64,000 nucleotides of DNA from Anaerolineales bacterium (GTDB lineage: Bacteria; Chloroflexota; Anaerolineae; Anaerolineales; UBA11579). The stretch is taken from NCBI GenBank assembly GCA_026129305.1, contig JAHCII010000003.1, forward strand, positions 62,001 through 126,000. Reading direction: 5' to 3'. The translations under genes and the position numbers were made by a program. The notes below the pieces were generated by a model. That model was not told the DNA's origin, searched no databases, and was given only the letters and a program-made list of their open reading frames with translations. Positions within the stretch are counted from its first letter, which is position 1; the number at the start of each line of letters is the position of its first letter. Shown here one piece after another: positions 34,985-43,469 of the stretch.

Positions 34985-35099
34985 GCGCTCATTCTATCAG
35001 CGCCAGGACCTGGGGTTTGGATCAGCCCCAGCCACAATCTCATAAGGTTCTCATAGCCTTTTCTTGACGGGCAATTCCTGCGGCCAGTACAATCGCGGC

Positions 35100-36347
35100 A
35101 TGTATCTTCGTGGCAGCCGCTGGCATATGCAGCGCCAACGCAAACAGCGCCGGGTGAACCCGGCGCTGATCGGGTTGGTGTTAATGCTGGCGGGGGCGGC
35201 CTGCTACTTCAACCAATATGTGGTGCCGGCCCTACCCCTGCCGCAGGAACCCACGCTGGTCCCCACGCAAGACCCCGAATCCTATGTGAGTGCGGCAGAC
35301 GCCTATTTTAATGAAGGCAACCTGCTGCAGTCGATTGCCTCCTACGAGCAGGCCATCATGGCAGACCCGGCCAACCCGGCGGTGTATATCGCCCTGGCCC
35401 GCGTGCAAATGCTGGCCGGGCGGCCAGAGGCGGCCCAAACCAGCGTGAGCAATGCACTGCTGCTCAGCCCAGACAACCCAACCGCCCTCTCCATTCTGGG
35501 CTGGGCCTTGAATGCCCTGGACAACGAACCCGGGGCGGAAAGCGCCCTTCGGCGTGCCCTGCAGCTGGACCCCAACCAGCCGCTGGCCCACGCCTTCTAC
35601 GCCGAGGTATTGGCCGACCAGCAGTTGTATGAACAGGCCGCCGAAGAATCGCGCATCGCGGTGGAACTGGCCGGCGACCTACTGGAAGTGCGCCGGGCGC
35701 GCGGCTATGTGCTGGAGCTGACCGGCAATTATCCTGAAGCCGCCTTCCAATATGAAGCCGCGCTGCAGATCAACGACCGGATTGCCGGCCTGCACCTTTC
35801 CCTGGGACGCGTGTACCGCGCCATGGAACGCTACGAAGACGCCATCAACCAGTTCGTGGTGGCCGACTCGCTCAACCCGAACGACCCCCTGCCCAACACT
35901 TACACCGGGCTGATCTACATTACCACCGGCGAATTCGGCAAGGCCGTGCAAGCCATGCTGCAGGCCGCCTCCGAAGAGCCGTCCAACCCCTACCGGCATG
36001 CCAACCTTGGGGTGGCCTATTACCGCAATCGCCAGTCCGAAGAAGCCTTGCAAGCGCTGGAGCTGGCGCTGCGCGGCGGCACGGACGATAAGGGGAATGT
36101 GGTCCCCGGCTTGGCTCTGGACGCGCCTGATGTGGTCTCGTATTATTACATCTACGGGCTGCTGCTGGCCCGCGCCGAGCGCTGTTCTGAGGCGCTGCCC
36201 GTCTCCCAGGCACTGATCGCCGCTGTGCCGGACAATCAAGTGGCGGTGGACAACGCCAACGAGATGGTGCGCATCTGCGAAGAAGGCGCCAGCCTGCCGC
36301 CCGGCACACCACTGGCCGGCCTGGCGGCACGCGCCTGGGGGTCTTAG
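35100..36347 (+). CDS. Membrane-anchored TPR protein (first of a paralogous pair)
   Basis: A 415-residue protein with a basic N-terminus, one membrane helix (about residues 25-42) and a Pro-rich linker, followed by about eight TPR-like units (for example Y-F-N-E-G-N-L-L-Q-S-I-A-S-Y-E-Q-A). No catalytic motif. It starts at the ATG at 35100, six bases after TACAAT with TTGACG 18 bases further upstream; an in-frame ATG at 35064 lies upstream of this promoter. The TPR part should face outside. It probably scaffolds other envelope proteins. Confidence 0.85.
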   Translation: MYLRGSRWHMQRQRKQRRVNPALIGLVLMLAGAACYFNQYVVPALPLPQEPTLVPTQDPESYVSAADAYFNEGNLLQSIASYEQAIMADPANPAVYIALARVQMLAGRPEAAQTSVSNALLLSPDNPTALSILGWALNALDNEPGAESALRRALQLDPNQPLAHAFYAEVLADQQLYEQAAEESRIAVELAGDLLEVRRARGYVLELTGNYPEAAFQYEAALQINDRIAGLHLSLGRVYRAMERYEDAINQFVVADSLNPNDPLPNTYTGLIYITTGEFGKAVQAMLQAASEEPSNPYRHANLGVAYYRNRQSEEALQALELALRGGTDDKGNVVPGLALDAPDVVSYYYIYGLLLARAERCSEALPVSQALIAAVPDNQVAVDNANEMVRICEEGASLPPGTPLAGLAARAWGS

Positions 36348-36349
36348 CC

Positions 36350-37648
36350 ATGCGCGTCCGCCAACGCCAGAATCTGTTCCACTCCCCCGGGCCGCGTTCC
36401 AACCCGTACCGCATGATGTTTTGGGGCGGGCTGATCATGGCTGGGCTGTTCATGCTGCAGGGTTTGAATACCGGCCGCTACCAGCCGCTGTTCGTGCCCA
36501 CCCCCACCGCCACCCGCAGCGCCGCCTCCTATCGTGAAGAAGGCAGCGCCTTCTTTAATGCCGGCAACCTGGACAGCGCCATCCAGGCCTACCAGGATGC
36601 CCTGACCGAGAACCCGCAAGACTATTTGGGCTGGACGGAACTGGCCCGCATCCAGGCCTATTCCTCGGCCCTGCTGACCCAGGACCGCCGGCGTGAGCGC
36701 CTGGCGGAGGCCCTGCAAAGCATTGACCGCGCCGTGGAAATTGCGCCGGAATACAGCACCGGCCATGCGGTGCGCGCCTTTGTGCTCAACTGGAGCGCAG
36801 GGGCGGCCGGCAACACCGCCGAGTACCAGGCCTTCATCGCCCAAGCCAGCATCGAGGCGGTGCTGGCTTTGCAGCTCGACAGCCGGGATGTGCTGGCGCT
36901 GGCCTACCAGGCCGAGATCTTTGTAGACCAGCAGCAATACGACCAGGCTTTCCAATACGCGGAACGAGCCCTCTCGCTGGACTCGCGCTCTTTCGACACC
37001 CTGCGCGTCAGCGGTTATGTGCGCGAGTCGAGCGGCAATTACGCCGGGGCGATCGAGCGCTACCAGCAAGCGGTGGAAGTGGCCCCCAACCAGACCTTCG
37101 TCTACATCCGCATCGGGCAGAACTATCGTGAACTGAGCCTCTACGACCAGGCGTTGGACTACTTTGACCAGGCCGCCACAATCAACGCCGCTCTGGGCAT
37201 CAGCGACCCGCTACCCTACATCGCCATCGCCAAGACCTATTCGCGCATGGGCGAGTTCTTCGCCGCGGCGCTGAATGCGGAGCGCGCCATTGACCTGGAC
37301 CCGACCAATGCCGACTGGTATGGGCAGCTGGGCATCATCTATTTCCGCTCCCGCAACTACGAAAGCTCCATCCCCGTACTGGGCTGCGCGGTGAACGGCT
37401 GCTCCGATGTGCAAAACAGCCTGGACAGTTTGGGCCGCTGGACCAATTCTGTGCAGGGCATGCCGCTGGATGACAACACCCTGGTCTACTACTACACCTA
37501 TGGCTCGGTGTTGGCCGCCCTGCAGGACTGCCCCACTGCCATGCCGATCCTGGACGAACTGCGCCAGACCTATGCGGGCGACTCGATCGTGATGGGCATC
37601 GTGCAGCAAAACTACGCCATCTGCGGTCAGCCTCTGGCTGGTGGATAA
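36350..37648 (+). CDS. Membrane-anchored TPR protein (second of a paralogous pair)
   Basis: A 432-residue paralogue of the previous gene, starting two bases after its stop. It has one membrane helix (M-F-W-G-G-L-I-M-A-G-L-F-M-L), a P-T-P-T-A-T linker and TPR-like repeats. Near the C-terminus, short Cys-containing segments (L-G-C-A-V-N-G-C-S-D, A-L-Q-D-C-P-T-A, Y-A-I-C-G-Q) suggest extracytoplasmic disulfides. Both proteins may work together. Function unknown. Confidence 0.85.
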   Translation: MRVRQRQNLFHSPGPRSNPYRMMFWGGLIMAGLFMLQGLNTGRYQPLFVPTPTATRSAASYREEGSAFFNAGNLDSAIQAYQDALTENPQDYLGWTELARIQAYSSALLTQDRRRERLAEALQSIDRAVEIAPEYSTGHAVRAFVLNWSAGAAGNTAEYQAFIAQASIEAVLALQLDSRDVLALAYQAEIFVDQQQYDQAFQYAERALSLDSRSFDTLRVSGYVRESSGNYAGAIERYQQAVEVAPNQTFVYIRIGQNYRELSLYDQALDYFDQAATINAALGISDPLPYIAIAKTYSRMGEFFAAALNAERAIDLDPTNADWYGQLGIIYFRSRNYESSIPVLGCAVNGCSDVQNSLDSLGRWTNSVQGMPLDDNTLVYYYTYGSVLAALQDCPTAMPILDELRQTYAGDSIVMGIVQQNYAICGQPLAGG

Positions 37649-37821: not shown

Positions 37822-38118
37822 ATGGCTAGTACCCTCAAACCGCTCGCAGACCGCGTGTTGGTGGAGCCGATCGAGGACGAAGAGGTCACCGCGGGTGGCA
37901 TCGTCCTGCCGGAGACCGCCAAAGAGAAGCCGCAGCGCGGCAAGATCTTGGCTGCCGGCCCCGGTGGCCGCGACGAGAATGGCAAGCCGGTCGAAATGGA
38001 AGTGGCCGTGGGCCAGACTGTCTTGTTCGCCAAGTATGCCGGCACCGAGATCAAGGTCGATGGCAAGAAGCTGCTGATCCTGCGCCAATCCGACGTCTTG
38101 GCCATTGTCGAAGGCTAG
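37822..38118 (+). CDS. groES: Co-chaperonin GroES
   Basis: A 98-residue Hsp10. [11 protein letters not shown] at the N-terminus, the mobile loop around [11 protein letters not shown], and G[12 protein letters not shown] complete the family pattern. It caps GroEL during folding. A GGAGG ribosome site lies eight bases upstream, unlike the leaderless genes. A short duplication (GTCGTCGAAGGCTA) after its stop separates it from groEL. Confidence 0.97.
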
Positions 38119-38166
38119 CCGTCGTCGAAGGCTAAGCACTTATATCTTTCCCCAAGGAGACACTAA

Positions 38167-39810
<1,644 letters not shown>

Positions 39811-39862: not shown

Positions 39863-40037
39863 CTACACATGCCGAGTGTCGGGAATTGCGGATATTTGCA
39901 ATAATCCGAGATTGAGTATAGAATTCCGGGTAACAAGGTGCTCCTGCCGCCTTGGGTTCTCTCTTTAGGTAGATTAGCTGCAAGACTGCAGGAAGACGTT
40001 TTGGAGTAGAAAAATTCAGAAACTGTATCCTCGTGTT

Positions 40038-42065
40038 TTGCACATTGCCCTGATTTTGAGTCTACTGGCCGCTTGGCTACCAACTCCAGCTTCTGCGGCT
40101 GCCTCCGCGTCTGAAAGCGGATATGATCCCCAACCCTACTTGCGCTCTGACGGCACCTTAGACGTGCCCGCTGGTTTCAGCGGCGGCTTCGATCTGAACG
40201 GCTGGGACGCGAGCCTGCATCCCAGCCGCGGCGTCCTGCTGCGCCCAAAGGCAGTCGGGGCAGGTGAGTGGGCCTCACTAGGCGGAGCGGGTACGGGATT
40301 AAATGGCACCGTATATGACATCGAGTTCCAGGGCGGGGTGCTCTACGCTGGAGGCTTTTTCACGGATGCCGGCGGTGACCCGGACGCCAATTACATTGCC
40401 AAGTTCAGCGGCGGAGTCTGGTCTTCGTTGGCTGGGCCAGGCAGCGGGCTTAACAACAGCGTGCACGACATTGAGTTTGACAGCGGAGTGCTCTACGCGG
40501 GAGGCCAGTTCACCAATGCGGGCGGCGATGGGAATGCGAACCGCATCGCCAAGTTCAGCGGCGGGGTTTGGTCTTCGCTGGGGGGCGTGGGGTTGGGTGG
40601 CACTGTAGAAGACATCGAGATCGATAGTGGGATTATCTACGTCGGCGGTTCCTTCACCAATGCCGGCGGCAATGCCAACGCCAATCACATTGCTCAGTTC
40701 GACGGGAGTGCCTGGTCCGCGCTGGGTGGTGGCTTGAACACCACCGTATATGACATCGAGTTTGACGGCGGGGTGCTCTACGCCGTGGGTGCTTTCACCG
40801 CTGCAGGCGGCGATGCGAATGCGGACCGCATCGCCCAGTTCAGTGGCGGGGTTTGGTCTTCGCTGGGCGGCGTGGGGCTCAGTGGCTTTACGTATGAGGT
40901 CGAAGTTGATGGCGGGGTCGTTTACGCCGGAGGCGCGTTTTCAGATGCAGGCGGCGACCCCGACGCCGACGGCATTGCCCAATTCGGCGGCGGGGTCTGG
41001 TCTGCCGTGGGCACGGGGCTCGGTACTGTACGCGACATTACATTCAACGCCGGAGCGCTCTACGCTGGGGGTGGTTTCACCGATGCGGGCGGTGATCCTG
41101 ACGCCGATAATATTGCCCAGTTCGTCTCGCCGGCAAGCGGCGGTGGCAGTAGCAGCGACAGCAGCGGTTCTTCCATCAGCAAAGCCATCGCCACCAGCGG
41201 CGTCACCAGCCTGCAACAAGGCCGCATCATCGTCTATGTACCCGCCTCAGCCATCCCCAGCGGCCAGAGCGATTGCAAAGTAACCATCACCCAGAAGGGC
41301 GAATCAGGCGCCTATGGTTTCTCGCTTGACGACACCGTGTGGGATGTAAGCGTCCCATGCGGTGGGCACGAGGTCAGCCTGTTCTTTGACGCGCTCACCG
41401 TCTGTATCCGCCCCAAGGATGGCGCCGTCGCTGATAAGAACGTCTACCACCGCCACGGCTCGGCCGGCTTCGCCGCCCTCAGCGGCGGCAGCGGTCCCGC
41501 AGGCTATGCCTGCGGGCAGACCCGCACGCTCTCGCTCTTCACCCTGGGCCAGTTGGCTCTGCCAGCCACCGGCTTTGCGCCGGGCGTGATCACCGATCTC
41601 GGCGCGCCTACGGTGGCCTATAGGGCCAGCGACCTGAGCCTGAGCATCCCCAGGTTGGGCGTGGAACTAGACATCCTCGGCGTGCCCCAAGGCCCCAACG
41701 GCTGGGACGTAAGCTGGCTTGGCAGCAGCCAGGCAGGCTACCTGTATGGCACCAACTTCCCGACCTGGCAGGGCAACAGTGTGCTCACCGCCCATGTCTG
41801 GAATGCGGACGATACGCCTGGGCCGTTCTATGAACTCAAATCGCTGCAGCATGGTGACCAGTTCACTATCGCGGCCTATGGTTACATCTACACCTACGAA
41901 GTGCGCAGCAACCGCCTGGTCAGCGAGAGCAATCTGAACGTATTAGCGACGAACAGCGACTATTCGCAGATCACGCTGATCACCTGCGAGACATTCAGCG
42001 AAGCCACGGGCGATTACCTATACCGCCGGGCGGTGCAAGCCGTTCTGGTGAGCGTCAGTCAATAG
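40038..42065 (+). CDS. Secreted beta-propeller protein with internal LPATG motif and C-terminal sortase domain
   Basis: A 675-residue protein. Residues 1-20 are a signal peptide (hydrophobic core, A-S-A cleavage). Residues ~77-363 hold six ~47-residue repeats (W-S-S-L-G-G...D-I-E-F-x-G-G-V-L-Y-A-G-G-x-F-x-x-A-G-G), likely a propeller. A Gly/Ser linker and a Cys-containing beta domain follow. LPATG sits at 508-512, just before a sortase domain with His586 (L-T-A-H), Cys650 (L-I-T-C) and Arg663/664. The TTG start is uncertain: the frame is open back to 39978 without a better codon. No membrane anchor is seen after the signal peptide. A close relative survives as a relic at 19795. Confidence 0.82.
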   Translation: MHIALILSLLAAWLPTPASAAASASESGYDPQPYLRSDGTLDVPAGFSGGFDLNGWDASLHPSRGVLLRPKAVGAGEWASLGGAGTGLNGTVYDIEFQGGVLYAGGFFTDAGGDPDANYIAKFSGGVWSSLAGPGSGLNNSVHDIEFDSGVLYAGGQFTNAGGDGNANRIAKFSGGVWSSLGGVGLGGTVEDIEIDSGIIYVGGSFTNAGGNANANHIAQFDGSAWSALGGGLNTTVYDIEFDGGVLYAVGAFTAAGGDANADRIAQFSGGVWSSLGGVGLSGFTYEVEVDGGVVYAGGAFSDAGGDPDADGIAQFGGGVWSAVGTGLGTVRDITFNAGALYAGGGFTDAGGDPDADNIAQFVSPASGGGSSSDSSGSSISKAIATSGVTSLQQGRIIVYVPASAIPSGQSDCKVTITQKGESGAYGFSLDDTVWDVSVPCGGHEVSLFFDALTVCIRPKDGAVADKNVYHRHGSAGFAALSGGSGPAGYACGQTRTLSLFTLGQLALPATGFAPGVITDLGAPTVAYRASDLSLSIPRLGVELDILGVPQGPNGWDVSWLGSSQAGYLYGTNFPTWQGNSVLTAHVWNADDTPGPFYELKSLQHGDQFTIAAYGYIYTYEVRSNRLVSESNLNVLATNSDYSQITLITCETFSEATGDYLYRRAVQAVLVSVSQ

Positions 42066-42167: not shown

Positions 42168-43469
42168 TTGAAAACCAGTGCCCACCTTCGTTTTGCCCCC
42201 CTCGCCTGCCTTGTCATCCTGTCGCTGGTGGTCGCCGCCTGCGGTGGCGGCAGCAGCAGCAACATCAACGCAGACGACATTCTCGCCACCCACACCGCGC
42301 TGCGGACCGAGCAGGCGGCTGCCTGGAATATTACCCCAACGCCACTTCCCACGGCTGTGCCCACCGCTGGCACCGCAGCCACCGCGCTAGCTCCCTGGCT
42401 GGATATGTTGCAGGCGGTGGATAGCCCCCGCAGCGTCGGCCGCTACAGCTCGTTGGCGCTGGATGCGGCGGGCAACCCGGTGATTAGCTACTACGATGCC
42501 TCCAACCAGGATCTGAAGCTGGCCCACTGCCGGGATGCGAACTGCAGCTCCGCCGGGCTCAGCACCGTGGCCAGCAGCGGCAGAGTGGGCGAATACACCT
42601 CGCTGGTGTTGGATGCGGCGGACAAGCCGGTCATCAGCTATTTCGACGATGCCGAACGAGACCTCAAGCTGGCGTATTGCAACGACCCTAACTGCGTGAC
42701 CGCGGTGCTCAACACTGTGGATAGCGAAGGGGAAGTGGGCCAGTACACTTCGCTGGCGCTGGACGCAGCCGGCAACCCAGTCATCAGCTACTATGACGGC
42801 ACCAACTACGCGCTCAAGCTGGCCCATTGCACAGACCCGGTGTGTGGCTCGGTGGTTATTACTGTCGTGGACAGCGAGAACAGAGTGGGTGAGTACAGCT
42901 CGCTGGCACTGGATGCAGCGGGCAACCCAGTCATCAGCTACCATGACTCAGGCAATCAGGATCTAAAGTTGGCGCGTTGCCATGACCCCAACTGCGTCTC
43001 GGCTACCCTTAGTATCCTGGACGGCGAGGCGGTTATCACTGGCGCCTTCGGCCGTTACAGCTCGCTGGTGCTGGACCCAGTGGGTAACCCGGTGGTGAGC
43101 TATTACGATGATGTCTTGGACGACCTGAAGCTGGCTCGTTGCCGCCAACCCAATTGTGCTACCGTGCACATTATTGTGGTGGACAGCGAAGGCGAGGTAG
43201 GCTGGTTCACTTCGCTGGCCTTGGACGCGGCGGGTAACCCGGTCATCAGCTACTACGACCGCACCAGTCTTTCGCTCAAGCTGGCCCAGTGCCATGACCC
43301 CAACTGCGCCAGTGCAGATATCGCCACTGTGGACGATGATGGCGATGTCGGCTGGCACACTTCGTTGGCGCTGGATTGCGCTGGCAATCCCATTATCGCC
43401 TACTACGATTTCGACAATCAATCACTCAAGGTCGCCAGCTTCAGTGGCTCGCCAGACTGCCTGCCCTAA
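42168..43469 (+). CDS. Lipoprotein with seven Cys-containing propeller-like repeats
   Basis: A 433-residue protein starting at TTG, seven bases after TATACT (42155-42160), so leaderless. A lipobox (V-V-A-A-C-G-G-G) gives lipid attachment at Cys25. A Thr/Pro linker precedes seven ~50-residue repeats with core [16 protein letters not shown] and L-K-L-A-H-C-x-D-P-N-C, two cysteines per unit except the last. Seven units fit a seven-bladed propeller with one disulfide per blade. Its 3' end overlaps the convergent methyltransferase gene by 29 bases. Ligand unknown. Confidence 0.85.

Follow-up and report, generated by a model that had tools for sequence, protein, structure and literature searches.

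An LPxTGF motif at conserved spacing before a C-terminal sortase domain in secreted Anaerolineales proteins: a possible self-sorting module

Known sortases are shared enzymes, held at the membrane, that act on other proteins. LPXTG cell-wall sorting proteins of the TIGR01167 type consist of a signal peptide, a cargo, and an LPxTG signal near the C terminus, followed by a membrane helix and a basic tail. A C-terminal domain that processes its own chain is known from the Hedgehog/Hint proteins, where it cuts itself off via a thioester and passes the N-terminal part to a nucleophile. Class C (pilus) sortases are membrane-anchored and cargo-free and act on other proteins; N-terminal to the barrel they carry a substrate-like segment, the lid (DPW/F/Y), whose DPX motif lies 71–72 residues before the His and 133–134 before the Cys (PMC3493515). 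Swapping the lid motif of GBS SrtC1 for IPNTG left the lid disordered and the site empty (PMC3166054). A sortase and an LPxTG motif have been combined in a single chain by engineering with the S. aureus enzyme SrtA: in STEPL fusions, the cargo is freed on transpeptidation (PMC11561820), a His-srtA-LPETG-protein construct underwent 20–40% self-cleavage during synthesis (PMC2901362), and the self-cleavable BISOP tags place the sortase first.

We analyzed a gene at positions 40038–42065 (+) of a 64,000-nucleotide stretch of Anaerolineales DNA, referred to here as the window. The open frame encodes 675 aa, arranged as a signal peptide, six propeller-like repeats, a second beta domain, an LPATG motif (residues 508–512), and a C-terminal sortase domain. 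An earlier note on this DNA had described the signal peptide, the six repeats, the motif at this place, and intact His586, Cys650, and Arg663/664, and all of these were present as described. It had also stated that no membrane helix follows the motif, and we likewise found none in the window protein, whose C terminus is the sortase domain. Its distance of about 70 residues from the motif to that domain holds only if measured to His586 (about 74 residues); the domain itself starts about 23 residues on. The signal peptide, (M)QKLYPRVLHIALILSLLAAWLPTPASA (40014..40097, +), comprises a hydrophobic segment and an AxA site and begins at either a probable ATT start at 40014 or TTG at 40038. The ATT is probably the likelier start, because GGAG is located 7 nt 5' of it and because the close relative L039, which keeps the same ATT, has an in-frame stop codon shortly upstream.

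The sortase catalytic domain (residues 535–671; 41640..42050, +), assigned from its PF04203 match, its triad of His586, Cys650, and Arg663, and its fold, scored 67.7 bits against PF04203 (cut-off 26.6). Foldseek comparison with solved sortases gave E 2.6e-11, with class C and class A structures as the best fold matches. Among the NCBIfam models, the class C model NF033745 scored highest, at 47.6 bits, below its cut-off of 160, and the class D, E, and F models reached 31–36 bits against cut-offs of 140–166. The general sortase model was thus the only one above its cut-off, with no class model reaching its own. Neither the class C lid motif DPW/F/Y nor a C-terminal transmembrane segment of the class C type was found in the window protein; LPxTGF occupies the place of the lid motif. 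Transpeptidase activity is inferred from the intact triad only.

A module of the form [LIV]Px[T/S]GF-(21–24 aa)-sortase ends secreted proteins of ~400–4000 aa throughout the order Anaerolineales. A motif-plus-sortase search of 100 related genomes gave matches in 91/101, the strong ones starting at or slightly before LPATGF within open frames that run to ~4000 aa. A genome-contig scan yielded 78 loci, every one from Chloroflexota; the cultured Ornatilinea apprima and Longilinea arvoryzae are among the sources. In 400 Chloroflexota genomes, sortase scores split into two sharply separated groups. Matches of the high-score group mostly cover LPxTG and are confined to one order, save one copy without the motif. 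Those of the low-score group (<=100 bits) begin at about position 26–30, after LPxTG, and are mostly sortases of 200–400 aa; the ones examined had no LPxTG at that place and were mostly membrane-anchored. A plasmid search returned a single true member besides four distant sortases of class C/F. The true member, L233, lies on the 180-kb plasmid CP069395.1 next to a heliorhodopsin gene. The module had no match in the viral contigs searched, and a viral fold search gave none below E 0.001.

The motif was found at the expected place, as xPx[T/S]GF, in 77/77 intact genes before any motif-based selection; xPxTGF is present in 74 of the 78 loci and xPxSGF in L102 and L112. The earlier note had named homologues with the same sortase domain and no LPxTG at this place as a refutation, and the only exceptions were L083, which is frameshifted at the motif position and hence outside the 77, and two subfamily copies lacking the motif, namely L145, a separate ORF from another order, and L146, which is a broken fragment. 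L096 retains LPETGF behind a longer linker, and two divergent members in genome G060 still carry IPDTGY and IPQTGF. Because the motif occurs in all intact relatives at near-fixed spacing, we do not regard it as a chance match. At the level of sequence, an LPxTG motif and an intact-triad sortase in one chain at conserved spacing is a family feature. The same count supports the reading first given to this gene, which allowed either self-processing or an inactive tether; with no cleavage data, both options are still possible.

Conservation was counted in a 72-row alignment whose rows had been selected by the presence of the motif. In these rows P, G, and F of the motif are invariant, T is found in 70/72 and S in the other 2, the first position is mostly L/I/V, position x holds 12 different residues, and the columns upstream are unconserved. 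This pattern, free at x and upstream and fixed at P, T/S, and G, is what a genuine sortase site would show. The catalytic H, C, and R are conserved in 72/72. In the window protein, LPATGF (residues 508–513; 41559..41576, +), assigned as an internal sorting motif from this family conservation, is followed by a conserved tail and linker, APGxVTxLP... (residues 514–533; 41577..41636, +), with the spacing of 21–24 aa kept in 71/72 aligned sequences. The motif therefore sits within a longer conserved stretch, TGFAPGxVTxLP, as might be expected if it served purely as a structural linker, without any part in catalysis. We consider this highly improbable, as a free x with fixed P, T, and G, adjoining a sortase, is a sortase recognition pattern, and a similar LPxTG recurs in the other fused layouts described below.

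We propose, with a probability of roughly 0.6, that the LPxTGF-sortase segment at the C terminus is a self-sorting module that acts in cis. Cleavage, action in cis, and the nucleophile are all inferred, without biochemical evidence. The signal peptide would export the window protein as a soluble chain with no later membrane helix; the sortase would fold at the C terminus, and the short linker would bring LPAT-G to the active-site groove. Cys650 would then attack the Thr511-Gly512 bond, so that the cargo would stay bound to its own enzyme through a thioester until a nucleophile takes it, leaving G-F-A-P...sortase as the remaining product. That nucleophile would most likely be a peptidoglycan-precursor amine, resulting in anchoring, or otherwise water, resulting in release. 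murC was found in the genome of the window, so lipid II is likely made there, and this inference makes a peptidoglycan precursor the most likely acceptor. The self-cleavage of engineered single-chain fusions speaks for the proposal, and the disordered IPNTG lid and empty site of the altered GBS SrtC1 speak against it. How an enzyme without a membrane anchor would get to lipid II is unclear, which also counts against self-sorting. The Hedgehog/Hint domains share only the logic of self-cleavage and transfer; their fold and chemistry are unrelated to those of the module.

The main rival to self-sorting is that LPxTGF acts as an autoinhibitory lid, a pseudo-substrate in the active site of an enzyme that serves other proteins once the lid moves. 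The motif lies where class C lids do relative to the catalytic residues (PMC3493515): from the motif Pro it is 77 residues to His and 141 to Cys in the window protein. The class C model, besides being the best-scoring one, matches all 72 aligned members, and the motif region is modeled with confidence. In the AlphaFold2 model of the C-terminal part (mean pLDDT 87), the ten residues that bear the motif average 78, the next ten 86, and the upstream residues 42–48; the motif blocks of the full-length model reach 84 and 91. The same similarity in spacing implies that LPATG can probably reach the active-site groove, an argument from spacing alone without contact data. However, the lids of class C carry DPX and so offer no cleavable site, whereas a perfect LPxTG with a free x is kept here, and every copy of the module has its own cargo. 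We therefore judge the lid unlikely, also because no free substrates with the extended motif were found in 61 genomes and no canonical LPXTG anchor scored over the cut-off in the genome of the window.

The extended motif PxTGFAP occurs at 88 sites in 61 genomes, 61 of them in front of a module-type sortase. For the other 27, the count is close to that expected by chance (17 in a backward control) and, read individually, they fall in short or unrelated frames with no secreted C terminus, so that no credible free protein with this signal was found in the 61 genomes. In the genome of the window, PxTGFAP occurs only once, at the window gene, and no canonical LPXTG anchor protein scored over the cut-off in a family search. 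Because free proteins with the signal are lacking in these genomes, x is variable, P-T-G is strictly conserved, and the triad is intact, we favor self-processing over an inactive tether. It remains possible that the sortase acts on signals beyond those searched, which would speak against self-sorting.

The genome of the window also encodes L001 and P0002, both membrane-anchored sortases that lack the motif, and a membrane-spanning fusion, L002. P0002 (54968..55729, -) lies in the window and served as a control; it matches PF04203, has no LPxTG, and belongs to a different clade. The presence of these enzymes would allow the motif to be read by another sortase, a membrane-anchored housekeeping enzyme, with the C-terminal domain a mere passenger. 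Such a role is very unlikely in our view, since His, Cys, and Arg would not be expected to be kept in 72/72 passenger domains. Moreover, the hydrophobic helix and basic tail of normal sorting signals were not found after LPxTG in the window protein, which has the sortase domain there instead.

Genomes of 2–3 Mb contain up to 7 copies of the module, every one with a cargo and a sortase of its own, and service in trans by one enzyme would make these copies wasteful. Several copies per genome would also suit an arrangement in which one chain supplies the sortase and another the motif that it cuts, so that cargoes are joined to each other in a pilus-like self-polymer. Class C sortases, the pilus enzymes, are the nearest in sequence score and rank among the best fold matches. 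Linking of siblings nevertheless seems quite unlikely, as the cargo families are mutually unrelated and, short of a systematic search, no Lys motif of the pilin type was seen. Within a genome, the copies stand behind unrelated cargo; between members, Pfam identified Big_12, laminin G, beta helix, Calx-beta, and endonuclease/phosphatase domains. At L016:1501-2070, the motif segment LPSTGFRHGEVTQLPKQPAAPS is duplicated in tandem ahead of the sortase.

A second layout, in which the fusion spans the membrane, is found in the same order. L002 (G000:C37) has the order cargo-LPTTG-TM-basic-TM-sortase, and five proteins of ~1000 aa from several genomes of another family in Anaerolineales (L169, L200–L203) have the order cargo-LPGTG-TM-TM-sortase. 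These were at first suspected to belong to the same family as the window protein, and the tree speaks against this: the LPxTGF family forms one clade (96/89), L169 and L200–L203 form a separate one (100/100), and L002 pairs with a free-standing sortase (100/97). Because a single clade joining the LPxTGF family with L169/L200–L203 was not rejected (AU p 0.40), the tree suggests two or three origins of the sortase-cargo fusion, and at least two. Close downstream of L002, on the same strand, another secreted protein is encoded. A 2273-aa frame in genome G068 (L205), which was outside the tree, has IPVTGF, then membrane segments, then a C-terminal sortase and is possibly a further fusion type.

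Extending the self-sorting proposal from the segment to the order, we lean only slightly toward the view that a class of self-sorting secreted proteins evolved in Anaerolineales, with cargo, sortase, and motif in one soluble chain that would anchor or release its cargo in cis, without a membrane-anchored signal or a shared housekeeping sortase, and with the membrane-spanning version arising separately in the same order. As far as we found, a self-sortase design of this kind was previously known to us only from protein engineering, and a literature search limited to open-access papers gave no description of such a natural module. Like STEPL and BISOP, it has sortase and LPxTG in a single chain; unlike these man-made constructs, it is natural, with a fixed short spacing and a sortase of another subfamily, and its order is the reverse of that in BISOP. 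If self-sorting is correct, it would be a new mode of surface display in a phylum with a poorly understood envelope, would point to one position with two uses, as class C lid and as cis substrate, and would provide ready-made single-chain ligation tags for protein engineering. The family also points to incomplete annotation: the 2570-aa plasmid member L233 is labeled solely as a DUF11 protein.

The cargo of the window protein consists of the six propeller-like repeats (about residues 77–365; 40266..41132, +), recognized from repeat motifs, predicted strands, and a weak Pfam Rax2 match (E 0.006). The repeats start with EWASL/VWSSL at residues 77, 127, 177, 225, 272, and 320 and contain six copies each of xF[ST]xAGG and xW[SA][SA][LV], with about four strands per repeat in the AlphaFold2 model. 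That they form a closed propeller is plausible but not shown. Between the repeats and the motif lies the beta domain (residues 379–505; 41172..41552, +), modeled with pLDDT mostly 80–95, which is common to other cargo in the genus and shares 49–71% identity over ~112 aa with L035–L038, L041, and L043.

Downstream of the gene, the window encodes a lipoprotein-like repeat protein (42168..43469, +) with a probable lipobox, VAACG. Its domain is 45–48% identical over ~340 aa to the cargo of L069, L082, L068, L049, and L067, suggesting one cargo type with two display modes. Elsewhere in the window, two adjacent TPR proteins (35064–37648) are encoded upstream of groES/groEL-like genes (37822–39810).
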